DNA of 27,096 bases, taken from contig CAIYYW010000401.1 in assembly GCA_903930515.1 (NCBI GenBank), positions 1-27,096 on the forward strand, given 5' to 3'. The stretch comes from an uncultured delta proteobacterium. Lineage in GTDB: Bacteria > RBG-13-61-14 > DRUE01. The notes beneath the pieces are model-generated. The model saw nothing but the letters and a program-made list of their open reading frames with translations. It did no database searches and was not told the DNA's origin. The position numbers and the translations under genes were made by a program. Position 1 is the stretch's first letter; each line of letters opens with the position of its first letter. This document shows, one piece after another, positions 1,292 through 23,558 of this stretch.

Positions 1292-1328
1292 CAAATCCTC
1301 CCCGGATCGGTTTTTTTAAACCACAGAT

Positions 1329-1356
1329 ATTTTAGAGCCTTCATCATTCCGGTCAA
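1329..1356 (-). promoter_or_regulatory. Sigma70-type promoter of purD
   Basis: On the minus strand, TTGACC (1356-1351) and TAAAAT (1334-1329) are separated by 16 bp, close to the bacterial housekeeping consensus. It lies in the gap between the fucosidase stop and the purD start. The predicted leader of about 30 nt contains a small GGTTT/AAACC hairpin and then the purD ribosome site. Pattern match only. Confidence 0.55.
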
Positions 1357-1391
1357 GCAAGGGACGGGCTTGCCTTGCCTCGGTTTATTGA

Positions 1392-2828
1392 TTATGGCGC
1401 CATCTTCTCCTGCGGACTCAGGTAGAGTTCAAAATTGGAAAGAGTCGGACAGTCGCGGGATTGGGTGACGCGGACCCGAACTTTCGGGGTCGTGACCGGG
1501 TTGAAGCGGAGGATGCGTTTGTATCCGATGGCGGCTCCTTTTGCGATCGGGTTCCAGTCTTTCCCGTCCCAGGCGTCCAGGAAAAATTCCTCTACCCGCT
1601 GCCCCAGTTTGATCTGTTCCTGGATCAGGGCGATGTTGAAAGTCATGGGCCGGCCGAGGTCATACTCAATGCGGGAGTCGCCGCCAGGCTGGGACGAGGA
1701 ATTTATTTTGGCGTCCCGGGCAAGGTTTTGCGCAAAGGTTTCGTCCAGATATTTCCTCAGCTCAATTAGGCGCGTGGCGTCATTCTCGTTGATCAAGCCG
1801 CGCCGGTCGGGCGGTATGTTGAGGAGCAGGACTGCGTTTCCGCCCACGGCGTTGAAATAAATATCAACCAGGCGAGAAAGCGATTTCACCATCCGGTCCT
1901 CCTGTTTGTGGTAAAACCAACCGGGCCGGATTGAGGTGTCAACCTCGGCCGGAAGCCAGCGGATGATCAGGCCTTGTTTCGCGGCCTCAATCAGTTTCAG
2001 CCGCGAGCCGATGTCCGGATCGGTTGCCGAATATTTTTCCGGCGCCACGCTCCACTCGCTCGGTCGTCCCTTGCCGGCCTCGTTCCCTACCCAGCGCACA
2101 TCCCCGCGCTCGTTGAAAACCACCGCCTGAGGCTGCAACTCATGCGCCAAATTGAAATACCCCTGCCAGTCATAAAGCCCCTGCATCTGTTTCCACTTTT
2201 TACCCGTTCCCGCTCCGTCAAACCACACCTCGCTTACCTCGCCGTAATTGGTCAGCAGTTCGCGGAGCTGGTTCTTGTAATAGTCGTTATATGCCGGGGC
2301 GCCGTAGGTTTTTTCGTGGCGGTCCCACGGAGAAAGATACACGCCGAATTTTAGCCCGGCCTCATGGCATGCCTCTGCCAATTCTTTCACCACATCCCCC
2401 TGACCGTTTTTCCAGGGGCTGTTCTTGACCGAGTGCTCGGTGTATTTGCTGGGCCAGAGACAAAAGCCATCGTGATGTTTGGCCGTGATGATCAGTTCCT
2501 TGAAGCCCGCCGCTTGCAACACCCCGACCCACTGCCGCGCGTCTAACGCGGTCGGGTTAAAAAGTTTCGGGTCCTCTTTGCCGTTCCCCCATTCCTTGTT
2601 GGTGAAGGTGTTCATGCCGAAATGAGCGAACGCGATATATTCCATTTCCTGCCAGGCAAGCTGGTTCGCGGTCGGGACAATCCGGCCGGCCTTCAAGATG
2701 ATCTCCTGCTCGGTGTCGGCCGGACTCAGTTGGATGGAATTGAGATAAACCCCTTTTTCATCCGCGCGGAGCAAAAGGGAAAGCAAGACCGTGAGAGCGA
2801 TGGTCGGAATTGCCAATTTCAGTTTCAT
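1392..2828 (-). CDS. Secreted GH29 alpha-L-fucosidase
   Basis: Predicted retaining exo-alpha-L-fucosidase of glycoside hydrolase family 29, removing terminal fucose from glycans. The 478-residue product starts with a Sec signal peptide (MKLKLAIPTIALTVLLSLLL), so it acts in the periplasm or outside. The catalytic barrel spans about residues 45-350. It has the GH29 segments AFAHFGMNTFTNKEWG (67-82), TAKHHDGFCLWPSKYT (115-130) and VSEVWFDGAGTG; D204 in WFDG is the expected nucleophile. The C-terminal 110 residues (from about 370) look like an F5/8-type beta-sandwich, possibly carbohydrate-binding. The layout resembles the alpha-1,3/1,4 subfamily (GH29-B), which is inference; I cannot place the acid/base residue. 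A GGGAGGAAG ribosome site precedes the ATG. It is divergent from the GH27 gene 86 bp away, suggesting a small glycan-use locus. Confidence 0.93.
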   Translation of the reverse strand: MKLKLAIPTIALTVLLSLLLRADEKGVYLNSIQLSPADTEQEIILKAGRIVPTANQLAWQEMEYIAFAHFGMNTFTNKEWGNGKEDPKLFNPTALDARQWVGVLQAAGFKELIITAKHHDGFCLWPSKYTEHSVKNSPWKNGQGDVVKELAEACHEAGLKFGVYLSPWDRHEKTYGAPAYNDYYKNQLRELLTNYGEVSEVWFDGAGTGKKWKQMQGLYDWQGYFNLAHELQPQAVVFNERGDVRWVGNEAGKGRPSEWSVAPEKYSATDPDIGSRLKLIEAAKQGLIIRWLPAEVDTSIRPGWFYHKQEDRMVKSLSRLVDIYFNAVGGNAVLLLNIPPDRRGLINENDATRLIELRKYLDETFAQNLARDAKINSSSQPGGDSRIEYDLGRPMTFNIALIQEQIKLGQRVEEFFLDAWDGKDWNPIAKGAAIGYKRILRFNPVTTPKVRVRVTQSRDCPTLSNFELYLSPQEKMAP

Positions 2829-8088: not shown

Positions 8089-9591
8089 TTATTCCGCCCG
8101 GGCCGAGACCTGGGTGGTGACCTCTTTTCCGGTGGCTTTATCAAGAGCGGAAACGGTGAGGATCCCCTCGGTATCCACCGCGAAAGTGACTTCCACCTTG
8201 ACCTCCCCCTTGGGCTTGGCCGGGAGGCCGGTGAACGCGATCTTGCTCAGCAGTTCATTCTCCTTGGCCCAGGCGCTGTCTCCCTGCAACACCACAAGTT
8301 GGACCGAGGATTGATCGTCTTTATGGGTGGTGAAGATCATTGATTTTTTAACCGGCACCGTGGTATTCTTCGGGATCAACTCCTTGAACCGTCCGTCCGG
8401 CAGGCCCAGCCCGATCGAGAGCGGAACCACATCCAGCAACAACACCCCGGTCTCGCCCCGGGTGATAATATCCGCCATAATCGCGGCGCCGATCGCGACC
8501 GCTTCGTCCGGATGCACGCCCTTGGAGGGGCTTTTTCCGAAATAGTTCTTGATCTTCTCCCAGACCAGGGGCATCCGGGTCTGGCCTCCGACCAGGATGA
8601 TGTCGTCTATTTTATCCGGGGTCAGCCCGGCGATGTCCAGGGCCGAGCGGCAGGTGTCCAGGGTCTTTTCCACCAACTTCTCCGTGAGCAACTCCAATTC
8701 CGTCCGCTTGAGCAGGTATTCCAGGCTCAGCGGCCCCTGAGGACCCGAGCTGATGAAAGGCAATTTGATCTCCGCCTCTTTCCGAAGGCTCAATTCCTTT
8801 TTCGCTTCCTCCGCGGCGATCCGGAGCCGCTGCAGCGCCACCCGGTCCTCGGCCAGGGAAATTTTGGTTTCGCGTTCGAATTTTTCCGCGAGGTATTCCA
8901 CGATCCGGTTGTCAAAATCTATTCCGCCCAGGAAAGTGTCTCCCACCGTGCTCAACACCTGATAAACCTTGTTCTCAATGTTCATCGCCGTGACATCAAA
9001 GGTTCCTCCGCCCAAGTCATAGATCACCAGGTTCTTGTTCACCTCTTTTCTATATCCGTAGGCGAGCGCGGCCGCGGTCGGCTCGTTGATGATCCGGGCC
9101 ACTTCCATCCCGGCCATTTTTCCCGCGCGGCGAACATCAGTCCTTTGGCGGTCGTTGAAATGCGCCGGCACCGTGATCACGGCCCGGATCTCCGGGTCCT
9201 TGAGATAGTCCTCGGCCACCTGCCGGATATAACGAAGGATCAGGGCGAAAATTTCGACGACCGCGAACGGCCGATTATTTCCGATCACCTCCACTTCCCC
9301 GAATTTTCCTTCCGCGATCTCGTAGTAAAAACTCTGCTTGACTTTCTGCACCACCCAGGATTTATACTGCCTCCCCAGCAGGCGCTTGGCGCCCTGGATG
9401 GTGTTTTCCGGATTGGTCAGGCTCTGGCGCATCGCGTCGTATCCGACCAGGAGCTTGTCCTCGGGGGTGAAGGCGACCACGCTGGGGATGGTGAGATAGC
9501 CCTGGCTGGAAGGGATAACCCGGGGCTGGCCCTTCTCCACGATTGAGGCGCAGGAATTGGTTGTTCCCAGGTCAATTCCGATTATTTTCAT
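8089..9591 (-). CDS. Lidless Hsp70 (DnaK-like) chaperone
   Basis: ATP-dependent Hsp70-family protein in the cytoplasm. The nucleotide-binding domain is complete: IGIDLGTTNS phosphate-1 loop at 4-13, YDLGGGTFDV phosphate-2 loop at 191-200, and VGGQTRMP at 334-341. The linker VLLLDVVPLS (383-391) leads to a beta substrate-binding domain that finishes at residue 500. Ordinary DnaK has about 610-640 residues; the whole C-terminal helical lid is absent here and the protein ends cleanly after the beta domain. It is therefore more likely a specialised Hsp70 than the housekeeping DnaK, and no grpE or dnaJ is nearby. It begins 2 bp after the stop of the PilZ gene, implying coupled translation and a shared function. 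Confidence 0.9.
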   Translation of the reverse strand: MKIIGIDLGTTNSCASIVEKGQPRVIPSSQGYLTIPSVVAFTPEDKLLVGYDAMRQSLTNPENTIQGAKRLLGRQYKSWVVQKVKQSFYYEIAEGKFGEVEVIGNNRPFAVVEIFALILRYIRQVAEDYLKDPEIRAVITVPAHFNDRQRTDVRRAGKMAGMEVARIINEPTAAALAYGYRKEVNKNLVIYDLGGGTFDVTAMNIENKVYQVLSTVGDTFLGGIDFDNRIVEYLAEKFERETKISLAEDRVALQRLRIAAEEAKKELSLRKEAEIKLPFISSGPQGPLSLEYLLKRTELELLTEKLVEKTLDTCRSALDIAGLTPDKIDDIILVGGQTRMPLVWEKIKNYFGKSPSKGVHPDEAVAIGAAIMADIITRGETGVLLLDVVPLSIGLGLPDGRFKELIPKNTTVPVKKSMIFTTHKDDQSSVQLVVLQGDSAWAKENELLSKIAFTGLPAKPKGEVKVEVTFAVDTEGILTVSALDKATGKEVTTQVSARAE

Positions 9592-9593
9592 GT

Positions 9594-10304
9594 TTATTTT
9601 TCAGGTTCCAGCGGGTATTCCACGACCAGGAATTTATCCAACGCGGACTGCTGTTCTTGGCTGACCTGGATGAACTTGACCCCCATTCCCGGGATGAGCC
9701 GCTGGTCTTTCTTCTCCCGCGCTTCCCCCTCGGTCACCACCCGGACCACTTCTCCCTGAAGTTCTACTTCCTCGCCGGTCTCCGGGTGAATCAGGGTCAG
9801 GGTGATTACAATGCCGATCGGCTTGGGGTCGTTGGTGGGAATAAATATCCCTCCATGGCTGATGTCCTTGGCGTAATTTTCCAGCAAGGTGGTCAGGTCC
9901 GGGAAGCGCACCTTCATCCGGATCACCGACCGGCGGTGCTGTCTCCGGTCCATAATCACCCGGGGATTCTCCTCGGCCCACCGGCCGATATATTTTTCCA
10001 GCCGCTTCTGCGTCTGCTGATCAAAATCAATCAGATGCACGCCCATCCCGGAATCCCAGCCCCTATCCTTGGCGAATTCCGGAGAGATCACATGGACCAC
10101 TTCCCCCAGCGCGGTGACCGGCTTTTCCTCCTCCGGCAAAAAGAGCTTGATCTCGATCACGGTCTGCGGGGGCATGGGGGCCAAGCTCTTGATAAACAGC
10201 CCTCCTTTGGAGATATTGGCCGTGTATTCCCTATAGAACTGGTCAAAGCTCCGGAAATGAATTTCGATTTCCGCCTGGATTCTTAATAGCTCCCTTTTGC
10301 CCAT
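9594..10304 (-). CDS. Tandem PilZ-domain protein, predicted c-di-GMP receptor
   Basis: A 236-residue cytoplasmic protein made of two PilZ domains. Each has the two-part binding signature known for c-di-GMP: RELLR (4-8) with NISKGG in domain 1, and RRQHR with DISHGG in domain 2. The domains resemble the PilZ type described as paralogous in Myxococcus. It should bind the second messenger and pass the signal to a partner; the tightly coupled Hsp70 gene (2 bp downstream) is the obvious candidate, by inference. AGGAAG lies about 7 nt before the ATG. A -10-like box is upstream. The gene starts just past the terminator of the long chemosensory operon and so heads its own transcription unit. Confidence 0.9.
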   Translation of the reverse strand: MGKRELLRIQAEIEIHFRSFDQFYREYTANISKGGLFIKSLAPMPPQTVIEIKLFLPEEEKPVTALGEVVHVISPEFAKDRGWDSGMGVHLIDFDQQTQKRLEKYIGRWAEENPRVIMDRRQHRRSVIRMKVRFPDLTTLLENYAKDISHGGIFIPTNDPKPIGIVITLTLIHPETGEEVELQGEVVRVVTEGEAREKKDQRLIPGMGVKFIQVSQEQQSALDKFLVVEYPLEPEK

Positions 10305-10347: not shown

Positions 10348-10383
10348 AAAACAAAATCGCCGGCCGGCCCTTTACCCGGCCGG
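10348..10383 (-). terminator. Rho-independent terminator of the chemosensory operon
   Basis: On the minus strand CCGGCCGG (10383-10376), an 8-nt loop and CCGGCCGG (10367-10360) form an all-GC 8-bp stem, followed by CGATTTTGTTTT. It lies 8 nt after the kinase stop and marks the end of the long minus-strand array. Confidence 0.8.
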
Positions 10384-10391
10384 GTCGCTCT

Positions 10392-13300
10392 TTAAGCGGG
10401 ACCAGCTTCGGCCAGGGGGAAAGAGATGAAGAAAACAGTCCCTTCTCCGGGCTTGCTTTTCACCTTGATTTTCCCGCGATGCCGCTCCACGATGGATTGC
10501 ACGATATTTAATCCCAGGCCGCTTCCCTTTTCCCGGGGCTTGGTGGTGAAAAAGGGATCAAAGACCCGGCTCAAATCTTGCGGTTCTATGCCCACCCCGG
10601 TGTCTTCCACCCGGAGCTCCAGCCAGTTCCCGCGGGTCCGAGCCTTGATCCGGATTTTGCCTCCCCCTTTTTCCGCGCAGGCGTAAGAGGCGTTGGTGAG
10701 CAGGTTGATCAGAACCTGCTCAATTTGATCCTTGACCACTTTCAGACGGGGAAGGTTTTCCGGGACCAGGTTTTCAATTTTCACCCCCCCCCGGCGCAAC
10801 TCGTATCCGCTGAAGGAAAGCAGTTCGTCCACCAGTTTCTTCACCTCGATCTCCTGGGTGGTTTCCACGCCGGGACGCGCGTATCCCATCAGGTTCCTGG
10901 CCAGCCGCTGAATGCGCTCGCTGGCCTGGATCACGGTTTCCAACCGGCGCGCCAGGTCTTTTTCTTTGAGCTCCTCCAGCCGGCGCTGGACCATTTCCGA
11001 GGAAGTGATGATGGCCTGGAGCGGGTTGTTCAGCTCGTGCGCCACTCCCGCGGCCATCTGGCCGATCCCGGCCAGCCGCTCGGAATGGTGCAGCCGTTCC
11101 TCCAGTTGCTTGAGCGGGGCCAGGTCCTGGCCGATGGTGACAATCCCCCGCAGGTTGCCGTGTTGATCCATCAGGGGATCGGTGTTGGACAGCGCCTCCA
11201 CGATCTCGCCGGACGCCGACCTGAATTTGACCCGGCTATTAACCACCCGCTCTCCCTTCGAAACATTGTTCATAATCTCGGTAAATCCGATCCCCCGTCC
11301 TTGCGGATCTTCAATTTTCACCACATATTTTCCCATAAACTCCTGGATGTCCATTCCCATCAGCTCTTCCCTTTTCTTCCCCAGCCTCTCCGCCGTGGTC
11401 CGGTTGATCAGAGAAATTTTGCCGGCTTGGTCGTACATAACGATGAAGACGCTGGCGTTTTCAATCAGGATTTCCTGGAGCTTGCTGAACAGGGCTGCCT
11501 GCCGGATCCGGAGCAGGTTGGGAATGATGATCGCAAGATACCGGCTGAACAACTGTAATAAAAACTGCTCCTCCGACAAGAATGGCTCCCGGTGATGCGA
11601 TTCCACGCCCAGGAGTCCGATCAGGTTACGCTCCGAGACAATCGGCACCAGGAGCACGCTCCGGCTGTTCTCCAAAAACCCCAGCGAGGCCAGCCCCGGC
11701 TCAAACGCGAGCGGGTGGGCCGATTCCAGGAATTGCGCTTCCAGTCCCGGCTTCAAATCCAGCCGGGATCCGATCAGGCCGGAATCCAGGTTGCTCACCC
11801 CTTTGAGCAGGAGTTCTTTTTCCTCTCCCCTCCAGGCGATCCAGAGATGCGCGCGGGGGAAGATTTGCTGGAACAGGGTTAAAAATTGACCGAAAATCTT
11901 GGACTCATCCTGCTGCAGATCTATCTTCTGGCTTTGTTCAATAATCTGTTCCAGGAATATATTCCGCTGGAGCAAGGCCTGCTTTTGCTTTTCCAGCTTC
12001 AGGTACAGCCGGAAATGGGAAAGCGCGATCGCGATCTGGTCAATGAGCTGGCTGATCGGCTCCAGCTTTTCCGGCTTTAAATATCCCGGTTGACGATGTC
12101 CGAGAAAGAGTCTGCCGACCAATTCATCCTGGAACTTGAGGGGAATGGCTAAAAAGCTCTTAATCCCACGCTTGAGTAAATCCTCTTTTATTTCCTTGAA
12201 ATCCCCGGGGGCTTCTCCGCCGAAATCATACTGAGAAAAGTCCTCCAGATAGACAATTCCCGGAGCGCTCATCCAGTTGAGCACTTCCTCCATCTTTTCG
12301 TATATTTTTATTTCGCGAAATTGTCTGAGCTTGGTCTTGGGTTCAAAAGTTAAAAAATATAATCCGCGTTCTGTGGCCTCCATCGGGGTGATTCCCGCGA
12401 TATCAAAATCCAGCAGTTTTCCCAGTTGCATCAGCATGGAGGCCAGCGCTTCCTGCCAGTCGCTGGCCCGGATCAGGATCTCGGTGTTATTCTGGATCGC
12501 TTCCAGGAAATTGGTTTTCTCCTTGAGCGCCTGCTCCAACAGATGCCTTTCCGAGAGGTCCACCAGGAAGAACAGGAATCCGATCGCCTCTCCGGAGCGG
12601 TCGCGCATCACCCGGTTGAAATAATAGGCCAAAAAAGATTTCCCCTGCCGGTCCTTGACCCAGGCCTTGCCCTCCAGCTTCCCCTCGGCCCGGAGCGTCC
12701 GGAGCATCCGCAAGAACAGGTTGGGGTCAAAATCTTCCAGCAACACCCCGGGCAATTCCCCTTTCAATTCTTCGGTGGAGTATCCGAACATCCGCTCGGT
12801 CTCGCGGGTCAAATAGGTGATCTTGCCGTCCTGGTCAAGCAACAACAGGGGCACCGGCAGGTTCTGGAACAACTCTTCCCGGAACGCGCTCAGTTCCTGA
12901 TGCTCGGCCTCCATTTCCCGGCGCGCGCCGATGTCGGCGATACTCAGGATCAGATCTTTATCCCCTCCTCGCTCAATGGACAACTTTACCCGTTGATTCT
13001 TCCCTTGAGCCGAGCGCAAAATCAACTCCTCCCCGGCCCGTCCCTGGTTTTTGGCCCGCTCAACCAGCTCAACGGCCCGGGCGTAATTCACTCCCTCAAA
13101 ATACCGGCTCAGACTCCGGCCTTCCGGATTTTCTCCGAAAATTTTACGCGCCTGACCGAAGGCTTCCAGGATCAACAACTCCGAGTCCATTACCAGCGCC
13201 GCCTCTTCCATCATCGCCAGCATCTGCGAGAAATTCCGGTCCTTTGCGCCGGTCCGCTCCAAATCCAGGATTTTCTGCTTGCCCGCGTATTCCTTGGTTT

Positions 13301-15278
13301 CCACCTCGCTCAACTCGCCCAGCTTCTTGATGGTCTCGGCCATCCGCTCGGCCTGCTCGTCAATCATCTTGATCGCGTTGGCGCAGGTAGAAAGCATATT
13401 TTCCGGCAGTCCGGATTTCTCCTTGACCTGTTCCGCGAGCCGCTTGAGGATTTCGGTGTAGCCCATCACGGAAGTGAGCGGCTGGTTCAGCTCGTGCGCG
13501 GCCGCGCCCGCCAGCGCCATCACCGCCTCCCTCCGCTTGCTTTCCAGCAGCCGCTCCTGGGCCTGGCGCAGCCTTTTCTCAATTTCAATCCGCTCCCTAA
13601 GGTCCTGGTATAAACCGACGGTGGCGATTTCCTTTCCCCGGTCGTCATAGATGATCGCCGCGTTCATATTGATCGGGACTTCCTCGCCCTTGCTGTTCAG
13701 GATCACATTGTGGGTGGTTTCCAGACGGCCCACCCCTCCGTAGAACTGGCTCCTCAGTTTTTTCATTGTCGCCCGGGCCGACCCGGGCGCGTAGAGGTCC
13801 ACGATATTTCTCTTGCCCACCACTTCCGTGGCTTTGAGCCCGGTCAAATCCTCGGCCGCCCGGTTGAAGATGATAATATTCCCGTCCATATCCGCGACAA
13901 TGATCGCCTGGAGGGAATTCTGAACCAGGTTTTCCAGGAACTCCTTGGTCCGGCGCAACTCCAGGCTTAGTTTGCGTTCCTCGCTAACATCGTGGACCGA
14001 GATCAGTAATTCCTTGGCCGGCCCCGGCAGGGGCTCAATGTGAACCGTCACATATTTCCCGGCCCCCTCCCGGACCTTGAGCAAAAAATGACTGGTCCCG
14101 GAGCGGTGTTTCTTCCCAATCCATTCCCGGACCGGTTCCGCCCGGGGGTTTTCCAAAGCGAGGAATTTTTCCAGGGCCTCCCCCACCACCTGTGCCCGGT
14201 CGAACCCGGTGAGCCGGACAAAATTCTGGTTGACCCCGGTGATCTTCCCTTGTTTATTGGCCAGGATCAGGCCGTCCGAGGCGTATTCAAACAATTTTTC
14301 CAAACGGCGGGAAGCCAGTCCTTCCCGGCGCACGCTTTCCAAGGCCCGGGTTTTCTCCTTCTCGCCCGCTTGGGCCAGCCGGGAGAGCCGGATATTTTTC
14401 AGCGAGACCGCGAGGGCGTCCGCGATCATCCGGGCAAAGTAGATGTCGCTGGGCAGATACCCGAAATTTTGCGCCAACGAGCGCAGGATCATCGCCCCGA
14501 TCAATTCTTCCTGGTAAATCACCGGCACCACCAGGATGGAATGGATGAACTTGGCGGCCAAAATATTTTTCACTTCCTTCATCACCGGGTGGCGCTGGAC
14601 ATCCGCGATCACCAGGGGCTTTTTGGTCTTGATCACTTTCAGGATTTCCGGATATTTTTTCAGGTTGAGGGTTATGTTCAGCTCTCCCTTTTTCTCCGTC
14701 TCCACCACCACGATTCCCCGTTGGCGGGCTTGGTCAATCATCATAATGGAACAACTGGAGTAGGGGAACATCCGGTTCATCTCGCCCAAGGCGAGTTGCA
14801 GGATTTGAGCGTCGCTTTTTCCGGACTGGACCGAGGAGAGGATTTTTTTCAGGGCCTGATACCCCTGGCTCAGGGGGTATTCTTCAAGGTGGGTCCGGCT
14901 TCTCTCCAAAAGCCCCTGGAGCCTGAGCTTCAACTCCGAGGCCGTGATCGGCAAATGGATGAAATCATCCGCTCCCCGGAGAAGGTTGGCATCCCTTTCC
15001 CTGCCCGGCCGGGGATATACCAAAAGGATTGGGAGCTGCCTCAGCCCCCGCAACTCCCTGATTTTGGGAATCATCCCGGCCAAGCGGGAACTGATCAGGA
15101 GGGCGTTCCAGGAATGAGTGATTTTTTGTTTGAGATTTTTATCCCCGGGATGGGCCGTTTCCAGGTCCAGGCCGACTTTTTCCAGGACCGGGATCAGGGC
15201 TTTCAGCTCCGGTTCCCGGCCGCCCGCGATCAACAGGGCCGAGTTTGTTTTTTCGCCGTCTTTTTTCTTCTTGACCAT
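10392..15278 (-). CDS. Giant multi-PAS/GAF sensor histidine kinase with two H-boxes and a pseudo-receiver
   Basis: A 1628-residue cytoplasmic kinase with no membrane segment. Domains in order: degenerate receiver (about 13-128; the phospho-acceptor Asp is replaced by Ser63 and the conserved Lys by Leu109), GAF (137-295), PAS (322-435), PAS (443-562), first HisKA (583-660; H595 in AAAHELNQP), PAS (685-790), PAS (795-912), GAF (930-1090), GAF (1100-1260), PAS (1262-1392), second HisKA (1400-1465; H1414 in GVAHELNNP) and one HATPase (1512-1624; N-box near 1525-1529, DTGVGI at 1559, GSGLGL at 1585). No ATPase domain follows the first HisKA. No receiver follows the ATPase domain, so a separate response regulator is needed; the operon's CheY is one candidate. 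It overlaps larC by 49 bp and has AGGTGA/AGGGA upstream of its ATG. Domain borders are approximate. Confidence 0.93.
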   Translation of the reverse strand: MVKKKKDGEKTNSALLIAGGREPELKALIPVLEKVGLDLETAHPGDKNLKQKITHSWNALLISSRLAGMIPKIRELRGLRQLPILLVYPRPGRERDANLLRGADDFIHLPITASELKLRLQGLLERSRTHLEEYPLSQGYQALKKILSSVQSGKSDAQILQLALGEMNRMFPYSSCSIMMIDQARQRGIVVVETEKKGELNITLNLKKYPEILKVIKTKKPLVIADVQRHPVMKEVKNILAAKFIHSILVVPVIYQEELIGAMILRSLAQNFGYLPSDIYFARMIADALAVSLKNIRLSRLAQAGEKEKTRALESVRREGLASRRLEKLFEYASDGLILANKQGKITGVNQNFVRLTGFDRAQVVGEALEKFLALENPRAEPVREWIGKKHRSGTSHFLLKVREGAGKYVTVHIEPLPGPAKELLISVHDVSEERKLSLELRRTKEFLENLVQNSLQAIIVADMDGNIIIFNRAAEDLTGLKATEVVGKRNIVDLYAPGSARATMKKLRSQFYGGVGRLETTHNVILNSKGEEVPINMNAAIIYDDRGKEIATVGLYQDLRERIEIEKRLRQAQERLLESKRREAVMALAGAAAHELNQPLTSVMGYTEILKRLAEQVKEKSGLPENMLSTCANAIKMIDEQAERMAETIKKLGELSEVETKEYAGKQKILDLERTGAKDRNFSQMLAMMEEAALVMDSELLILEAFGQARKIFGENPEGRSLSRYFEGVNYARAVELVERAKNQGRAGEELILRSAQGKNQRVKLSIERGGDKDLILSIADIGARREMEAEHQELSAFREELFQNLPVPLLLLDQDGKITYLTRETERMFGYSTEELKGELPGVLLEDFDPNLFLRMLRTLRAEGKLEGKAWVKDRQGKSFLAYYFNRVMRDRSGEAIGFLFFLVDLSERHLLEQALKEKTNFLEAIQNNTEILIRASDWQEALASMLMQLGKLLDFDIAGITPMEATERGLYFLTFEPKTKLRQFREIKIYEKMEEVLNWMSAPGIVYLEDFSQYDFGGEAPGDFKEIKEDLLKRGIKSFLAIPLKFQDELVGRLFLGHRQPGYLKPEKLEPISQLIDQIAIALSHFRLYLKLEKQKQALLQRNIFLEQIIEQSQKIDLQQDESKIFGQFLTLFQQIFPRAHLWIAWRGEEKELLLKGVSNLDSGLIGSRLDLKPGLEAQFLESAHPLAFEPGLASLGFLENSRSVLLVPIVSERNLIGLLGVESHHREPFLSEEQFLLQLFSRYLAIIIPNLLRIRQAALFSKLQEILIENASVFIVMYDQAGKISLINRTTAERLGKKREELMGMDIQEFMGKYVVKIEDPQGRGIGFTEIMNNVSKGERVVNSRVKFRSASGEIVEALSNTDPLMDQHGNLRGIVTIGQDLAPLKQLEERLHHSERLAGIGQMAAGVAHELNNPLQAIITSSEMVQRRLEELKEKDLARRLETVIQASERIQRLARNLMGYARPGVETTQEIEVKKLVDELLSFSGYELRRGGVKIENLVPENLPRLKVVKDQIEQVLINLLTNASYACAEKGGGKIRIKARTRGNWLELRVEDTGVGIEPQDLSRVFDPFFTTKPREKGSGLGLNIVQSIVERHRGKIKVKSKPGEGTVFFISFPLAEAGPA

Positions 15279-16438
15279 TCCCTGATCACCTCTTGCTCCA
15301 GAACCGACAATGGGATTTGACGCCTTTCCGAGATCGCCTTCAAGTCCTCAAACTCCGGATGAATCCGCAATGATCCCCCGGGTAGTTCCATCCGTTTCAC
15401 CCGCACGGTTCCGTAAGCGGTTTTCAGCGGGACGATTTCCCTCGCCAGACTCACCCGGCTGACCGGATAATACCTGACGCCGATGGTGGTGGAGTGGATA
15501 AAAAGGGCTTGGGTCATCCCTTCCAGACGGACGGACGGCCCTAAGGCGCGCAGGATAATCCCCGGCCGGTTCTTTTTCATCTGGGCCGGGACCAGGGCGA
15601 CTTCCAAAGCCCCGGCCTCTAACATCGCCTGGCTCAGCCGGTCAAAATATTCCGGATTCATATCGTCAATCGCGGCTTCCATCTGGACCAATTCTTCAGC
15701 GCCCGCAGGGGCCGACCCGAGCACGATCCGGAGCAGGTTGGGCCTGGTTAAAAGCTTCCGCTCCCCCAATCCGTATCCGATTTTTTCAACTTCCATCTCC
15801 GGCATCGGCCCGAAATTTTTCCCGAGCGCGCGGGCGAGGGCGGCGCCGGTGGGGGTGGCCAGTTCTCCCTCGCTCTCTTCGCCGCCGATCACGGGCAGTC
15901 CCCGCAAGAGTTCCAGGGTGGCCGGGGCCGGCGCCGGGAGCAAGCCGTGGTCGCATCTGACTTCCCCGCCTCCGAGCCGGATCCGGCTGAAGCCGATCCC
16001 GCTGATTCCCAGTTCGTAAAATCCGAGCGCGGCTCCCACGATGTCCAGGATGGTGTCCACCGCGCCCAGTTCGTGGAAATGCACCTGGTCCGGGGGGACC
16101 GAGTGGATTTTCGCTTCGGCCCGGGCGAGCAGTTGGAACGCTTTCAGGCTTTTGTCTTTTACCGGCTCGGGCAGGCGGCCTCGGCTGATGATCTTGACAA
16201 TCTCTTTCAGCCTTCTCGCCGGTTGCGGCCCGGCCGGAATTATTCTCACCAGGATTCCGGCGATTTGGAGGCGGGAAGATTTTTTGATTTCAATTTTGAC
16301 CTTGCCCAGGCGGAGGATGCGGGCCAATTCCCGGAGCCTTTGGCCGGGCCAACCCAGGCTGATCAACCCGGCCAAAACCATACTTCCGGCAATGCCGCTG
16401 CCGCAATCCACCCAGGCTATTTTTTTATTATTGCTCAT
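15230..16438 (-). CDS. larC: LarC-type nickel insertion protein for the nickel-pincer nucleotide cofactor
   Basis: In the NPN pathway LarC uses CTP to insert nickel into pyridinium-3,5-bisthiocarboxylic acid mononucleotide. The 402-residue product is a single frame, unlike the split larC1/larC2 of some lactobacilli. Key features are the N-terminal DCGSGIAGSM segment, VHFHELGAVDTILDIVGA (from 119, with H120, H122, E123 and D128) and CDHGLLPAPAPATLELL. The usual N-terminal signature ends GDM; here the Asp is Ser19, a notable change. The gene begins 8 bp after larB and overlaps the kinase gene by 49 bp. No larA or larE is present in the window, so sulfur insertion and the client enzyme must be encoded elsewhere. 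Confidence 0.92.
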   Translation of the reverse strand: MSNNKKIAWVDCGSGIAGSMVLAGLISLGWPGQRLRELARILRLGKVKIEIKKSSRLQIAGILVRIIPAGPQPARRLKEIVKIISRGRLPEPVKDKSLKAFQLLARAEAKIHSVPPDQVHFHELGAVDTILDIVGAALGFYELGISGIGFSRIRLGGGEVRCDHGLLPAPAPATLELLRGLPVIGGEESEGELATPTGAALARALGKNFGPMPEMEVEKIGYGLGERKLLTRPNLLRIVLGSAPAGAEELVQMEAAIDDMNPEYFDRLSQAMLEAGALEVALVPAQMKKNRPGIILRALGPSVRLEGMTQALFIHSTTIGVRYYPVSRVSLAREIVPLKTAYGTVRVKRMELPGGSLRIHPEFEDLKAISERRQIPLSVLEQEVIREWSRRKKTAKKQTRPC

Positions 16439-16446
16439 CTTGTCCC

Positions 16447-17196
16447 TCAGAGACGGTTGATCAGGCTGGCGAAGCAGGCCGCGCCGTATCCATTATCAAT
16501 ATTGACCACGGCCAGCCCGTTGGCGCAGGTGTTGAGCATCCCCAGCAGGGCGCTCAAGCCCTTGAAGCTGGAGCCGTATCCGATGCTGGTGGGGACCCCG
16601 ATCACCGGCTTGTCCACCAGACCGGCGATCACGCTCGGGAGCGCGCCCTCCATCCCCGCGGCCACGATCACCACCCGGGCCTCGGCCAGATCCTCCTGAT
16701 ACGCGAACAGCCGGTGCAGGCCGGCCACCCCCAGGTCGTAAATATTTTTCACCCGGTTGCCGAGGAATTCCGCGGTCTCCCTCGCTTCCTCGGCCACGGC
16801 CAGGTCGCTGGTCCCGGCGGAGATCACCAGGATGGTTCCCTTGCCCTGGACCTTGATCGGGCGCTGGATGATTTTCAAGGTCCGGCCGCGGCTGTTGTAT
16901 TTACCGGCCGGGAATTTTTTCAGCAAGGCCCTTGCCTTGGCCGGGTCCAGGCGGGTGACCAGGATGTCGGTCTTTTCCGCTTTCATCTTGCCCAGGATCC
17001 GGATCAGCTCATTCAGCTCTTTCCCTTCTCCGAAAATCACTTCGGGGAATCCCTGCCGGAGCTGGCGATGGAAATCGAGCTTGGCGAATTCCAGGTCGGC
17101 GAACGGGAAATGGGCCATTTTTTTCAAGGCGGCTTCCGGGTCCATCCGGTGGTCCCGCACCTCGGTTAAAAGTTTTTTCAACCGCTCCCGATCCAT
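16447..17196 (-). CDS. larB: LarB-type pyridinium-3,5-biscarboxylate mononucleotide synthase
   Basis: First enzyme of NPN cofactor synthesis. It carboxylates and hydrolyses nicotinic acid adenine dinucleotide to give the biscarboxylated mononucleotide. The 249-residue protein has the expected length and layout: a helical N-terminal region (1-110) and a C-terminal PurE/NCAIR-mutase-like domain with ISAGTSDLAVAEEA (125-138), YDLGVAGLHRL, GMEGALPSVIAGLV and the C-terminal VVNIDNGYGAACFAS. Cys224 in LLGMLNTCANG is the likely match to the catalytic cysteine known in Lactiplantibacillus LarB. It starts 1 bp after the cheD stop (TAA-A-ATG), so its translation is coupled to a chemotaxis gene. It is not PurE itself, because the N-terminal domain and the larC neighbour fit only LarB. 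Confidence 0.93.
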   Translation of the reverse strand: MDRERLKKLLTEVRDHRMDPEAALKKMAHFPFADLEFAKLDFHRQLRQGFPEVIFGEGKELNELIRILGKMKAEKTDILVTRLDPAKARALLKKFPAGKYNSRGRTLKIIQRPIKVQGKGTILVISAGTSDLAVAEEARETAEFLGNRVKNIYDLGVAGLHRLFAYQEDLAEARVVIVAAGMEGALPSVIAGLVDKPVIGVPTSIGYGSSFKGLSALLGMLNTCANGLAVVNIDNGYGAACFASLINRL

Positions 17197-17197
17197 T

Positions 17198-17695
17198 TTA
17201 AATTTTTTTCACCTCTCCGGTGGATTGGTAAATTTTTAGCTCGCCGGTCCGGGGGTTGAACTCAATAGTCCTTCCCCGCTCCCCTCCCACATCCTCGCCC
17301 GCGATCGCGATTTTCTTTTTGGCCAAAGCCTTCCGGGTCGCCAGAATATTCCTCCGTCCGATGTTGAAGCCGGGACCGGCGTCAAACAAATTGAACCGGC
17401 GCGGGAACATATTGGCCCCGCCGGCGATTTTGGCGACCAGCCGTTCCGGGTGACATCCTGCCTTGATCAGCTCCTCCACCATCAGCGCGACCGCGGAGGC
17501 CGCGTATTTGGCCGAGTTAACGGCCGGGTCGGAATTATGCTGAGAGGGCAGGAGGATATGGGCCATGGCCCCGATTTTCTTTTTCGGATCCCAGATCACC
17601 AGTCCGACGCAGGAGCCGAGTCCGAAGGACTTGATGATTTCCAGGTTCCGGGCCAGGCAATACTGGCTGATTCTTATCCGAATAGATTTTTTCAT
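17198..17695 (-). CDS. cheD: Chemoreceptor glutamine deamidase CheD
   Basis: Converts specific glutamines of chemoreceptors to glutamate and, in Bacillus and Thermotoga, binds CheC and boosts its phosphatase activity. The 165-residue product has the catalytic pattern FGLGSCVGLVIWDP with C29, and AHILLPS with H46. The family's threonine six residues before the cysteine is a serine (S23), a conservative change that should retain function. The conserved NSAKYA and GGANMF segments are present. It starts 4 bp after the cheC stop and ends 1 bp before larB. The likely substrate is the receptor encoded in the same operon. Confidence 0.95.
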   Translation of the reverse strand: MKKSIRIRISQYCLARNLEIIKSFGLGSCVGLVIWDPKKKIGAMAHILLPSQHNSDPAVNSAKYAASAVALMVEELIKAGCHPERLVAKIAGGANMFPRRFNLFDAGPGFNIGRRNILATRKALAKKKIAIAGEDVGGERGRTIEFNPRTGELKIYQSTGEVKKI

Positions 17696-17699
17696 CCGG

Positions 17700-18320
17700 T
17701 CAGGCCCCTATCCCCATGGCCTTTAATAGAAGCCGGACCGAGGTTGGATCCGGGAGCAGATAGAATTTGCCGCGTAACTGGTCGCTCCCGCGCACGGAAA
17801 ATTCCGCCTCGATCACCACGATCTGATCGGCGTCTTCCCCCATCTGAATCAGGATCGGGTCAATGATGGCTCCGGCGAGATCAAAGGCGAACCAGGGCAC
17901 GGACTGAACCAGCCTCATCCCCAGCAGTTTTTCCATCACGCTCAGATAACTCCCGGCTAAAATGTTCCCGATCTCCTTGAGCATGGAAGTCTGATACTCG
18001 TCAAAGACCAGCTCCTCCGAATGGTCCCCGGTGATGATCTCCCGGAGCAGGAGCACGCTCTCGCGGGGGAAGATGAAGAGGATGTTGCCGGAGATCTGTC
18101 CGTGGAAGCGGAGGTAAATTCCAACCACGATTTCGCGCTCGTGTCCGATCAGGGCGGGCACCTTGCTCAGGTCGCATTTGGTTACGCGCGGGACCTCGAA
18201 GTAGATGGTTTTACCCACCATCTGCGCCATGGCGGTGGTGGCGTGCCCCAGTCCGATATTGCACAGTTCCTGAAGGGCGTCCACCTGCACCCGATCCAGC
18301 TCAAATTTTTCCGCGGTCAT
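17700..18320 (-). CDS. cheC: CheY-phosphate phosphatase CheC
   Basis: CheC/FliY/CheX-family phosphatase that removes phosphate from CheY-P. Both active-site copies keep the family pattern D/S-x3-E-x2-N: D14, E18, N21 in the first and S112, E116, N119 in the second, so it is a two-site CheC, not the one-site form. The 206-residue length is normal. It lies 10 bp after cheA and 4 bp before cheD, the usual functional pairing of CheC with CheD. There is no flagellar switch protein nearby and no SpoA-type C-terminal domain, so it is not FliY. Confidence 0.93.
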   Translation of the reverse strand: MTAEKFELDRVQVDALQELCNIGLGHATTAMAQMVGKTIYFEVPRVTKCDLSKVPALIGHEREIVVGIYLRFHGQISGNILFIFPRESVLLLREIITGDHSEELVFDEYQTSMLKEIGNILAGSYLSVMEKLLGMRLVQSVPWFAFDLAGAIIDPILIQMGEDADQIVVIEAEFSVRGSDQLRGKFYLLPDPTSVRLLLKAMGIGA

Positions 18321-18330
18321 CTCATCCCCC

Positions 18331-20265
18331 TTAAAATAGTCCGACCAGGTCCAGCACGAACACGATCCTGCCGTCCCCCAGCATGGTGACCCCGCCCAGG
18401 CCGGGGATTTTTTCCAGCGGCTTCCCCATCGGCCGGATAAAGGCGTCTTCCTGCCCGACCAGGTCGTCCACCACCAGGGCCAGCTTCTTCTTCTTGGCCT
18501 CCACGATCAGGCTGTTGAGCGGGAAATGGTGTTCCTCCGGAACCTTCAGGTCCAGCAGTTTATGGAAATACATCAGCGGGATCAGCTCCTGGCGCTCGAG
18601 GTAATACTCCTGGTTCTGGCTCTTGCGGATCTGGTAGGGCAGGATCTCAATGGTGCGCAGAATCCGGCTCAAAGGAAAGGCGAAAATTTCCTGGGCCAGC
18701 TTGATCAGGAGCACCTTGGTTATGGCCACGGTCCTGGGCAGTTGGAGCGAGATCATGGCGCCTTTGCCGGGGACGGAAGTCAGGATCACATTCCCGCCGA
18801 TGCCCTGCACGATATTTTTCACCACTTCCATGCCCACCCCGCGCCCGGAGACCATCCCGACCTTATCCGCGGTGGAGAACCCGGAGATAAAGATCAGGTT
18901 GATGCATTGCTCCATCGTCAGTTCCCGGGCCTGATCCTCGTTGATTAATCCTTTTTCCAGCGCCTTCTTGCGCACCTTGTCCGGATCTATCCCCCGGCCG
19001 TCGTCGGAAACGGACAAGTCCACCATATCGCGTTCGCGGCTGGCCAGGATCTTGATTTTACCCACGACGCTCTTGCCCTGCTTCTTGCGCTCGTCCGGGG
19101 TCTCAATCCCGTGATAGACCGCGTTGCGGATGATGTGCACGAGCGGGTCGGCCAGTTTTTCAATCAAGGTCCGGTCCAACTCGATTTCCTTGCCCTGGAT
19201 CTCCAGTTCGATTTCTTTCCCTTCTTCCCTGGCCAGGTCGCGGACCAGGCGGGGGAACCTTTGCACCGCCACTTCAATCGGAACCAGCCTCGCGCTCATC
19301 ACCTGGTCGTGGAACTCCGCGCTCAACCGGTCCAGCCGATCCAGCCCGGTCTTGAGACCCGCCAGCGGGTTGTTGCGGTGCAATTCTTCCAGGCCGCCCT
19401 TGATCAGGATCAACTCGCCCAGGGTGTTGATCAGGTCGTCCAAAATCTGGGTCCGGATCCGGACGGTTTGCAGAATTGTGGCCGTGGGAGGCTCGGATTC
19501 TTTGGGTCCCTTGACCGGTTCCGCGGCTTCCGGGGCGAAAGTATCTCCGGCCACGCTTTCCTTGAACTCGAATTTGACCAGCTCGCTCACGCCTTTGAGC
19601 GCCTCGCTGATCTGCTCGGAAGAGGCCTTGGACTGGAGCGTAAACCGGAGCGGATATCCCTGGGGAGAAGAGGGGATTTTACCCTGCTTGATCTCCTCCA
19701 GACTCGGATGGGCGGCTACGATCTTACCCAACTCCTCCAATCTTTTATAAAGGATCAGGGCGCGAACCGAGGGAGCATCCGCCTCGGAGGAGATATAAAC
19801 CTGGATTTCGTTTCCGGCTTTTTCCGGCGCCTTGGGCTCGGGCCGGGCGATTTTGGGTTTCTCCACCCCGGGTTCAGTCGGCTTTTTTTTTACCAGTTCC
19901 TGAATTTTTTCCTGGAGTTCCTTCCAGTCGGGATTAAACTCCCGGTTCTGTTCAATCTCCTTGAGCATCAGTTCAATCCGGTCCGCGGCCTGGAAGAGCA
20001 GTTCGGTCATTTCTTTCCCGACCGTCCTCTGCTTATGCCGCACCTGGTCAAACAGGTCTTCCATGGCATGGGCCAAATCCCGGATCGGCTCATAACCCAT
20101 TGAGGCGGCCATTCCCTTGATGGAATGGGCGTTTCTGAAAATAGAAGAGATGGTCTCCTCGTCCGGCTCTCCCTGCTCCATCTTGAGCAGGCAGTCGTTC
20201 ATAGACTGGAGGTGCTCTTGGGCCTCGCTTAAAAACAGGGCTTTATATTTGGATAGATCAATCAT
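18331..20265 (-). CDS. cheA: Chemotaxis histidine kinase CheA
   Basis: Central kinase of the chemosensory array, relaying receptor state to CheY. The 644-residue protein has all five regions: P1 histidine phosphotransfer (1-105, H47 in RNAHSIKGMA), a P2 CheY-binding domain (about 152-235, similar in pattern to the Thermotoga P2), P3 dimerisation (265-330), P4 ATPase (N-box HIIRNAVYHGIE at 377, DDGRGID at 421, GRGVGM at 474) and P5 CheW-like (515-642). The open frame continues upstream to 20394, but that part lies inside cheY. The ATG at 20265 lies 2 bp after the cheY stop and gives the expected P1 start. There is no ribosome site, so translation is probably coupled to cheY. Confidence 0.96.
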   Translation of the reverse strand: MIDLSKYKALFLSEAQEHLQSMNDCLLKMEQGEPDEETISSIFRNAHSIKGMAASMGYEPIRDLAHAMEDLFDQVRHKQRTVGKEMTELLFQAADRIELMLKEIEQNREFNPDWKELQEKIQELVKKKPTEPGVEKPKIARPEPKAPEKAGNEIQVYISSEADAPSVRALILYKRLEELGKIVAAHPSLEEIKQGKIPSSPQGYPLRFTLQSKASSEQISEALKGVSELVKFEFKESVAGDTFAPEAAEPVKGPKESEPPTATILQTVRIRTQILDDLINTLGELILIKGGLEELHRNNPLAGLKTGLDRLDRLSAEFHDQVMSARLVPIEVAVQRFPRLVRDLAREEGKEIELEIQGKEIELDRTLIEKLADPLVHIIRNAVYHGIETPDERKKQGKSVVGKIKILASRERDMVDLSVSDDGRGIDPDKVRKKALEKGLINEDQARELTMEQCINLIFISGFSTADKVGMVSGRGVGMEVVKNIVQGIGGNVILTSVPGKGAMISLQLPRTVAITKVLLIKLAQEIFAFPLSRILRTIEILPYQIRKSQNQEYYLERQELIPLMYFHKLLDLKVPEEHHFPLNSLIVEAKKKKLALVVDDLVGQEDAFIRPMGKPLEKIPGLGGVTMLGDGRIVFVLDLVGLF

Positions 20266-20267
20266 TA

Positions 20268-20633
20268 TCAGGAGGACGCCACCTTTTTCACCACTTCCAG
20301 AACCTTCTCCGGCTTGAAGGGTTTGACGATATAATCTCTGGCCCCGGCCTCGATCGCCTCCATCACCAGGGACTCCTGGCCTAATGCCGAGCACATCACG
20401 ATCCGGGCGAGCCGGTCGAACTTGATGATCTCCCGCACCGCCTCGATCCCGCTCTTGAGGGGCATCACGATATCCATGGTGGTGATGTCCGGCTTGAGTT
20501 GCTTGTATTTCTCGATCGCTTCCACGCCGTTGGCGGCCTCGCCGATGACCTGGAATTCCTGGCTGGCAAAAACCTCCTTGATCATATTCCTCATAAACAA
20601 GGCGTCATCCGCGATTAAAACCCGAATTGCCAT
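20268..20633 (-). CDS. cheY: CheY response regulator
   Basis: Single-domain receiver, 121 residues, the phosphorylated output of the chemosensory array. All key residues are intact: D9 and D10 of the acidic pocket, phospho-acceptor D54 in TMDIVMP, S82 in VMCSALG, and K104 in IVKPF. It has an ideal ribosome site (AAGGAGG, 8 nt before the ATG), unlike cheW and cheA, and is preceded by a 131-bp gap with strong inverted repeats and a possible promoter, so its expression may be set separately. It may be dephosphorylated by CheC and could also take phosphate from the giant kinase at the operon's end, which is inference. Confidence 0.96.
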
Positions 20634-20764: not shown

Positions 20765-21241
20765 TTAACTGAAATATCCTTCAATCTCTTCCAAGAGTTT
20801 CTCCAGGTTGATCACATTGAAAATCCGACCGCCCAGGTTGACCACCCCGGAAATATAAGGCTTGTCCGCCTCCGGCTTTCCCACCGCCCTCAAGATCGGC
20901 ACGGTCTCGATCCGCTCCACCCGGTCCACCAGGAAGCCGAGGTGGAACTCGGCCCCGCATTGAGCGGGGTCCAAAATCAAGACCCGGGTTTCCGGGTCCA
21001 CCGGCTTGGCCGGCATCCCGAAAAATTGGGCCAGGTCCATTGCCGCGATCACCTTGCCCCGGTAATTAAGCACGCCCCGGATAAAAAAAGGGGCCCGGGG
21101 CACAAACGACAATTTGGTCGGCTCGATCACCTGGCTGATGTATTCAATCTCAAACCCGAACAATTCCTTGTCCAGGAAAAAGCTGATCATCCGCAAATGC
21201 TTTTCCGGGAGCGCGGTTATGCCTGTGTTTGGTTCCGACAT
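20765..21241 (-). CDS. cheW: Chemotaxis coupling protein CheW
   Basis: Adaptor that links the chemoreceptor to CheA. The 158-residue product has the whole CheW fold: ISFFLDKELFGFEIEYISQVI (19-39), the conserved PRAPFFIRGVLNYRGKVIAAMDL region (48-70), VDRVERIETVP, and YISGVVNLGGRIFNVINLEKLL at the C-terminus. Its start lies 5 bp after the receptor stop (tandem TAATAA) and has no ribosome site, so it is probably translated by coupling to the receptor gene. It is followed by the structured gap before cheY. Confidence 0.95.
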   Translation of the reverse strand: MSEPNTGITALPEKHLRMISFFLDKELFGFEIEYISQVIEPTKLSFVPRAPFFIRGVLNYRGKVIAAMDLAQFFGMPAKPVDPETRVLILDPAQCGAEFHLGFLVDRVERIETVPILRAVGKPEADKPYISGVVNLGGRIFNVINLEKLLEEIEGYFS

Positions 21242-21246
21242 TTTTA

Positions 21247-22662
21247 TTATTCGAAAGTATAATCAATCTCGTCTTTCACCCGGGGCTTGGAACGAGGCCG
21301 CTTTTTTTCTCCGGGTTTTTCCGAGGGCTTATTCAACAGTTCCAGTTCCGGCTTGGCCGCGGCCTCCATACTGATCACCCGCTCCTGGTCGAGCCGGAAC
21401 CTGCTCACCAACTGCTTTAAGCGGTCCGCGGTCTGGGAAAGCTCCTGGGCCGACCTGCTCATTTCTTCCATGGAGGAAGTCTGTTCCTGGGTAGCGGAAC
21501 TGAGTTGCTCAATGCTGGTGGCATTATCGTGGGCGACCTTGGCGATCTCGTCAATGCTCCGGACCAGTTCCTTGGCGCCCTCGGCCTGGATCTGGGCCAG
21601 GTCGGAAATGTTTTTGACTTTTTCCGCGGCGGTGGAAATCATCTGCACGATCTCTTCCAGCGAGAGGCTGATGGTGCTCAGGTCTTCCCGACCGCCGGTG
21701 ATGTCCTGGGCGGTTTCCTTCATCGTGCCCACCACCCGCTCGCTTTCGCTCTCAATCTCCCCGACCAGGTCGGTGATCTGCTCCGCGGCGGTGCTGGTGC
21801 TCTCCGCCAGTTTCCTGACTTCGTCCGCGACCACGGCGAAGCCCTTGCCGTATTCACCGGCGCGGGCGGCCTCAATGGTGGCGTTGAGGGCGAGCAGGTT
21901 GGTCTGGCGGGCGATGTTGGTGATCATCTCCACAATCTTTCCGATCTGCTTGGTCTTTTCCCCGAACCGGACCACATTCTCCTGGGAGTTGGCCATTTTC
22001 CCGAACACATGATGCATCTTCTCCATCGCCTTGTTCGCCAGCTCGCCCGACTGGGCGGCCTTGTGCGAGGCCTCGCCCACGCTGGTGGCGGTGACCATGA
22101 CATTGGAAGAGGTCAGCTCGATGCTCCCGGCCATTTCGCGCACGGTTTTGGCGGTGTTTTCCACCAGGGAGGCCTGCAGTTCCACGCCCTTGCCGATTTC
22201 GCCGATGGTGGACGCGACTTCGTCGGCGCTGGCGTTGACCTGCTGTGCCACCGCGGAAAGGTTCTGGGCGCTCTGGCTCATATTGATCGCGGTGCCCTGG
22301 GTCTGGGCGGACAGTTCGCGCAGGCTTTCCAGCATCAGGTTGATGGATGCGGTCAAATCGTCAATTTCGTCCGGGTATCTTTTTTGGGTCCGGAGCTTGA
22401 CCTCTTCGGTCAGGTCTCCGGCGCCGATCCGTTTGGCGGAGGAGCTCAGGAGTTGCAGGTCGCGGAACAGGCTGAAGGAGTAGAAGTATCCGACCAATCC
22501 GGTCCCGAGCAGGATCAGGCTGACGGTGATCAGGAGCGACACCCACTGGGTGAGGATGTCACTGCGCCTCAGGCTGTCAAAGACGATATAGACGACAATG
22601 GTGAACAGGGCGATGATCAGATAGCCCAGAAAGATTTTCAAGCCTAACCTAACCTTCATCAT
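21247..22662 (-). CDS. Methyl-accepting chemotaxis protein with no extracytoplasmic sensor domain
   Basis: Chemoreceptor of 471 residues. Two membrane helices (about 8-28 and 40-65) are joined by only about 11 residues (29-39), so there is no periplasmic ligand-binding domain. A HAMP domain (63-118) and a long methyl-accepting coiled coil follow. The signalling tip (about 247-286, with [20 protein letters not shown] and [13 protein letters not shown]) is canonical. The C-terminus is basic, then DEIDYTFE, with no NWETF-type tether. The start is one of two consecutive ATGs (22662 or 22659) that overlap the cheR stop; GGAGG lies 3 or 6 nt away. The open frame upstream of that is cheR sequence. 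It may sense membrane state, redox or internal signals, or receive input from a partner. Confidence 0.94.
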
Positions 22663-23558
22663 CTTCCTCCCGCTTGCTCGAGCGCGCCCGGCCGGAAGGG
22701 CTTTTGATAAATCCGCTCGCTGACCGAGACCGGCTGAAATGTCGACCGATAGGGCTCGAACAAGAATTCGGTTTTTCCCAATACCAGGTATCCGCCTTCC
22801 CGAAGGGAGCGCTCGAAATGGAACAGCAATTTCCCCTGCTCCTCTCGCTCCAGGTAGATCATCAGGTTGCGGCACATAATCAAGTCCATGCCCTCGAACC
22901 CGCTCCGGCCCGCCCCCAGGAGGTTCTCGCGCTTGAAGCCGATCATTTTTTGGATCTCGGGAAGGATCTGATATTTTGGGCCCTGTTTCTGGAAATATTT
23001 CCGGATCAGGCTCGGATGCAGATTGTCCAACCGATCTTTGGGATATAGTCCCTGGAGGGAATATTTGATCGCCTCCTGATCAATATCGGTGGCCCAGATT
23101 CTCAGACCGCCTTTGCGCAAAAGAGACGGGTCCGCTTCCAAAAACATCATCGCCAGGGAGTAGGCCTCTTCGCCGGTGCAACAGCCGGCGCTCCAGACCC
23201 GCAGTTCGGTCCTGCGCTCATCCCGGGATCTCAACAACTCCGGGACCGCTTTTTTGGCCAAGGCCCGGAAAGTCTCTTCGTCTCTGAAAAAACTGGTCAC
23301 CGAGATGGTGAGGGTGTCAATAAATTCTTCGCCTTCCTCCGGATGGTTTTCCAGAAAGGCCAGATAGGCGGTGAGCGATTCCAGCCTGAGCGAGCGGATC
23401 CGGGCATTGATCCGGCGATGAATATAACTCGGCCGATAGCTGGAGAGGGCCAGTTGGTGTTTCTGGTAAACCAGCTTTTCCAGCCTGGCTAAATTCCTCT
23501 CCCCCATCTCCAGCCCGCTCGCGCCGGATTGGGCCAGCTCTTTTTCCTGCGGCAGCAT
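22659..23558 (-). CDS. cheR: Chemoreceptor methyltransferase CheR
   Basis: SAM-dependent methyltransferase that methylates receptor glutamates for adaptation. The 299-residue protein has the N-terminal helical domain (about 20-80, with [15 protein letters not shown]), SVTSFFRD (86-93), the SAM site [16 protein letters not shown] (122-137), WATDID (155-160) and [13 protein letters not shown] (224-236). The stop overlaps the start of the receptor gene. The ATG at 23558 has no ribosome site and sits 10 nt after a promoter -10 box. A second in-frame ATG at 23507 (MGERNL) is possible but has GGAG directly abutting it. No cheB is found in the window. Confidence 0.94.

Follow-up and report, generated by a model that had tools for sequence, protein, structure and literature searches.

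Why do larB and larC, two genes for the synthesis of the nickel-pincer cofactor (NPN), stand among chemotaxis genes in the genome of an uncultured deltaproteobacterium? The question is raised by a 27,096-nucleotide stretch of DNA, called the window here. An earlier note on it had proposed either a link between the cofactor and taxis towards hydroxy acids or a chance fusion of operons. We lean, with modest confidence, towards a different reading, in which a chemosensory operon has long and stably included larB and larC, and two steps of NPN synthesis would be co-produced with the sensory array. Its basis, established here from sequence, comprises the gene identities, the tight stop-start junctions, the recurrence of the arrangement in the window's phylum and in several deltaproteobacterial groups and, in three groups, the signalling homologue that follows larC.

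Gene content and layout of the operon

The genes lie on the minus strand of the window in the order cheR-mcp-cheW-cheY-cheA-cheC-cheD-larB-larC-histidine kinase. The stretch cheA-cheC-cheD-larB-larC-kinase, which the earlier note had reported with gaps of 10, 4, 1 and 8 bp and a final overlap of 49 bp, is exact in every junction, and the operon exceeds the span described there: cheR, mcp, cheW and cheY also stand 5' of cheA. The first gene of the predicted operon, cheR (22659..23558; PF01739, 175 bits), encodes an MCP methyltransferase and is followed by the receptor gene mcp (21247..22662; PF00015, 150 bits, and HAMP), whose start, ATG at 22662, overlaps the cheR stop as ATGA. Next come cheW (20765..21241; PF01584, 96.6 bits), cheY (20268..20633; PF00072, 94.1 bits) and cheA (18331..20265), with Hpt, P2, dimer, ATPase and CheW domains. 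The product of cheC (17700..18320) belongs to the CheY-P phosphatase family (PF04509, 64.7 bits; 98 bits against CheC of 1xkr/2f9z) and that of cheD (17198..17695) to the receptor deamidase family (PF03975, 108.6 bits; 2f9z_C, 109 bits); CheD Cys29 and His46 align with the catalytic residues of Thermotoga maritima CheD (2f9z_C).

The start codon of larB (16447..17196) is placed 1 base past the cheD stop (TAAAATG). Its product, the NaAD carboxylase/hydrolase of nickel-pincer synthesis, matches 7mj0 with 237.5 bits and NF033503 with 290.8 bits (cut-off 175) over positions 1-208 of the 209 in the model; Cys224 corresponds to the catalytic Cys221 of Lactiplantibacillus plantarum LarB (NTCANG and NSCASG aligned) and is invariant in our LarB alignment (A1). 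The nickel-insertion gene larC (15230..16438) scores above the cut-offs of TIGR00299 and NF052512, and its product is matched by the solved LarC 12bi over residues 4-378 (295 bits). LarC1 (209.5 bits, cut-off 90) and LarC2 (124 bits, cut-off 50) are encoded in a single reading frame, unlike in L. plantarum. Thus, the gene names given previously hold: both proteins are full-length, exceed the family cut-offs and keep their key residues. As in the L. plantarum lar operon, LarB and LarC are ordinary, with the catalytic cysteine and both LarC domains, and their chemistry is taken to be of the ordinary NPN type.

The last gene of the predicted unit (10392..15278) encodes a multi-PAS/GAF sensor histidine kinase, and a terminator-like hairpin of 8 G-C pairs with a T-rich tail follows at 10360..10383 on the same strand (a consensus match only). 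The unit would thus run from a promoter-like match 5' of cheR (23596-23569, likewise a consensus match only) to this GC-rich hairpin, and the gene spacing suggests that it is transcribed as one unit. A second promoter-like match (20695-20666; again by consensus only), in the 131-nt gap between cheW and cheY, could give rise to a shorter transcript. A search for RNA families found none within the window. Outside the predicted operon, a PilZ-domain protein (9594..10304, minus strand; PF07238, 84.6 bits), probably a c-di-GMP effector, and an Hsp70-type protein (8089-9591, minus strand) are encoded downstream of the kinase.

In the reading that we favour, the operon would consist of cheR-mcp-cheW-cheY-cheA-cheC-cheD-larB-larC and a REC/GAF output protein. 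One transcript would direct the synthesis of LarB, for carboxylation of nicotinic acid adenine dinucleotide, and of LarC, for nickel insertion, together with the array, and LarE, for the middle NPN step, and the client enzymes are encoded outside the operon. The array would more probably read a membrane or internal cue and act through a phosphorelay or c-di-GMP, with the NPN supply co-regulated.

Recurrence and history of the linkage

The order of the che-larBC genes is identical in all three genomes examined from the window's phylum; in the two relatives, identity to the window is 78% and 56% for LarB, 66% and 44% for LarC, and 70% and 45% for CheD. The arrangement was also found at 16 further deltaproteobacterial loci beyond this phylum. 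Recurrence in so many relatives indicates an old conserved operon rather than an accident, so that a chance fusion of operons, which a lack of recurrence would have favoured, is excluded for the source genome. Misassembly is ruled out as well, since the same order was obtained in independent assemblies of the phylum and outside it.

It counts against our reading that the linkage is confined to a minority of larB genes, most of which, including those of the deltaproteobacterial group, have no che genes beside them. From a scan of 84,980 species, the best 80 LarB loci were taken, to which the window and G002 were added; 14 of these 82 loci are che-linked (3 from the window's phylum, 3 of class A and 8 of class B, as defined below). 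Of 148 genomes sampled evenly from the phylum of G005, 126 had LarC, and che linkage was seen in 5 of the 107 previously unexamined genomes whose upstream region was read, a lower bound because some of the regions read were short. Two of the five (G101 and G130) belong to class B and three (G029, G065 and G098) to class C. LarB encoded on plasmids shows less than 60% identity and occurs largely in Pseudosulfitobacter/Sulfitobacter, Rhizobium and lactic acid bacteria.

The loci beyond the window's phylum fall into three classes. Class A (L025, L055 and L088) has the order (lon-)thiL-cheR-mcp-cheW-cheY-cheA-cheC-cheD-larB-larC-REC-GAF-GGDEF. Class B comprises 10 loci, including L037, L049, L059, L060, L061, L063, L073 and L085 among the 82, with the order (hsp20-)lon-thiL-mcp-cheW-(cheY)-cheA-larB-larC. 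Class C (L276-L278) reads dinG-type helicase-Roadblock-cheR-mcp-cheW-cheY-cheB-cheA-cheC'-larB-larC-REC-GAF-HD-GYP-pgpA-cinA. The gene immediately 5' of larB is cheD, cheC or cheA, usually at a distance of no more than about 30 nt; a 4-nt stop/start overlap joins larB to cheD in L088, to cheC' in L277 and to cheA in L037, L049 and L059, whereas in L025 and L055 the gap is larger than at most loci. Two neighbouring features were recorded in passing. Downstream of the che-larBC genes of L280, a QueC-family and then a TIR-domain protein are encoded (13587-15520), which could form a defence pair; near those of L063, one protein combines ankyrin repeats with a caspase-like (Peptidase_C14) domain (154-1488, plus strand).

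On the other side of larBC, a homologous REC/GAF protein, with a kinase, GGDEF or HD-GYP domain at its end, follows larC in the window's phylum and in two other groups. For the window, the homology lies in the N-terminal 300 or so residues of the kinase, which match the counterpart in G002 (BLAST E 9e-52) and class A proteins (7e-22 to 6e-14) directly and the class C REC-GAF protein via L088; no receiver is recognised by Pfam in the window kinase. With such a homologue beyond larC in three groups, larBC lies within a signalling operon and not just at its edge.

A serious rival, though a less probable one, is that gene order has simply persisted: che genes and larBC would once have become neighbours in an ancestral lon-thiL-...-larB-larC region and would have stayed together, with no functional tie, since disruption of a translationally coupled operon carries a cost. 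Indeed, lon and thiL have no evident tie to sensing or to the cofactor, yet they are kept in classes A and B. Moreover, in 9 LarB loci larB follows thiL, usually as lon-thiL-larB, without che genes and without larC, and in several genomes (L231, L234, L250, L257, L259 and L260) lon directly adjoins larC with no che gene or larB there. Part of the linkage could thus be due to neighbourhood inertia, and an ancestral lon-thiL-larB/larC neighbourhood probably existed; che genes would either have entered it between thiL and larB or have been lost from it more than once. In both the LarB and the CheA trees, the window's phylum, class B and class C each form a single group, so that the two halves of the cluster have broadly travelled together. 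Placing the che label on the 82-locus LarB tree requires three changes; a single origin of the link, as persistence would predict, is compatible with the tree, but its deep branches are weak and several origins are likewise possible. Finally, the cluster lacks larE, which would be odd if co-expression of the pathway were the point of the arrangement.

However, the che-larBC unit outlives its outer neighbours, which are lon-thiL in some loci, dinG-Roadblock in others and TPR-redoxin in the window. Within the unit, cheC, cheD, cheB and cheR have been lost or gained, yet larB keeps its position at the junction, and in three groups larBC stays between the che genes and the homologous signalling protein. 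That this core outlasts changes both in its surroundings and in its che content speaks for selection on the unit.

Output of the array and supply of the cofactor

With the order cheA-cheC-cheD, and with CheC and CheD clearly homologous to those of T. maritima, the operon recalls the CheC/CheD systems of T. maritima and Bacillus subtilis. Unlike in those systems, the window's cluster has no CheB, no FliG was found in its genome, its receptor has no ligand-binding domain, and two cofactor genes stand downstream. As read from its sequence, the receptor consists of two transmembrane segments, a short linker, HAMP and the signalling domain, a plan shared by the receptors of five other loci (L088, L063, L276, L280 and L061). 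FliG had no match in the three genomes of the window's phylum (G000, G001 and G002; completeness 93, 87 and 95%). Among 18 che-larBC genomes, it was undetected in 12, including all of classes A and C, and present in 6, all of class B. With no ligand-binding domain, no FliG detected and output proteins of the kinase, GGDEF or HD-GYP kind, the array here probably does not serve flagellar taxis; 'chemotaxis operon' is a family label, and a phosphorelay or c-di-GMP response is the more likely output in the window's lineage.

These features resemble ACF clusters, in which che genes without a detected flagellar switch stand beside kinase, GGDEF, HD-GYP or PilZ proteins. No ACF cluster with larB or larC is described in the literature searched, the terms larB and larC are absent from a survey of Geobacter che clusters (PMC2577667), and the che-larBC arrangement is apparently undescribed in the open literature that we searched.

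As the earlier note had suggested, the remaining pathway proteins were sought elsewhere in the source genome (3.65 Mb, 401 contigs) and found, as in the L. plantarum pathway: LarE on contig C239 of G000 (321.8 bits, cut-off 150) and LarA-type proteins on C320 and C161. The genome thus has what it takes to make the cofactor, and it has clients for it. None of these genes is near the che operon, so that larBC is separated from larA and larE, in contrast to the L. plantarum lar operon. The C320 protein (L009:1825-3114, plus strand; 71.4 bits) is of the uronate isomerase/GntE type, its nearest solved structure being 4nar, a 'putative uronate isomerase' (220 bits); judged from translations, its gene is flanked by those for an FGGY-type sugar kinase and a 6-phosphogluconate dehydrogenase, and it is probably a sugar-acid epimerase. 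The C161 protein is a weak Lar_N/DUF362 match (26.3 bits). More widely, each of the three genomes of the window's phylum has a LarE above the cut-off. So do 9 of 10 further che-larBC genomes examined, the exception, G007, being possibly incomplete; canonical LarA was found in none of these ten (G003-G012). The flanks of the 80 LarB loci, read for up to 10 kb as far as the contigs reached, yielded neither a LarA nor a LarE gene. These observations, together with the plan of the receptor and the failure to find FliG in the window's phylum, tell against taxis towards hydroxy acids.

A functional link between cofactor and sensing may exist, and a dedicated one, in which an NPN-dependent racemase or epimerase alters the sensed 2-hydroxy acid or other metabolite, or the array reports nickel or NPN status, would suit the deep conservation, the tight translational coupling and a receptor fit for an internal cue. 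We nevertheless consider it improbable: the operons contain neither a client enzyme nor a ligand-binding domain, the clearest client in the source genome sits with sugar-acid genes, and several genomes with the operon have no canonical LarA. We would give similarly little weight to the operon being a metabolic-status sensor with the NPN supply as a working part, in which LarA or, in LarA-less genomes, a DUF362 protein of the Fe-S subfamily described below would set an internal cue read by the array, and the CheA/REC-GAF output would tune c-di-GMP and LarBC together. That LarB and LarC of the cluster make a product other than NPN, such as a modified nicotinate for signalling, is highly improbable: larE does lie outside the cluster and was not found in G007, but the catalytic cysteine, the complete LarC1 and LarC2 domains and the high family scores are retained, every other che-larBC genome tested has LarE, and its absence from G007 may only reflect an incomplete genome.

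A candidate client family

About 15% of the genomes analysed in a previous study make the nickel-pincer cofactor without a recognised LarA and likely have unidentified NPN proteins (PMC11796402). The conserved tie to a chemosensory/c-di-GMP operon provides a lead on the occasion and purpose of cofactor synthesis, and a client family open to testing emerges from the che-larBC genomes.

In the LarA-less che-larBC genomes, the weak Lar_N matches are DUF362 proteins with two [4Fe-4S] motifs. An H-x9-K-x15-H triad, within HExTGFGGxxK...QH, is invariant in nine of these sequences (alignment A4, L145:1360-2484, plus strand, and eight relatives), and its columns align with LarA in hhalign (E 1.8e-6). 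Its spacing is that of LarA His174, Lys184 (the cofactor tether) and His200 (a nickel ligand). The subfamily occurs in 85 of 126 genomes with LarC versus 10 of 22 without it (p=0.056; 148 genomes, confounded by drafts), a co-occurrence that is at most suggestive; that of LarA with LarC, the positive control, was weaker in the same, similarly confounded set. DUF362 and LarA belong to one Pfam clan (PMC11770544), but in the literature that we searched DUF362 is nowhere proposed as a client of the cofactor. For genomes that lack LarA, this Fe-S subfamily with the LarA anchor motif is a candidate client.

The second LarA-type protein of the source genome is of a divergent LarA-like kind, about 410 residues long (L010:5054-6280, minus strand; L118 and L119), that occurs throughout the three genomes of the window's phylum. 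Its matches to Lar_N and to DUF362 are about equally weak, and the GSH, Lys and His positions are conserved in it.
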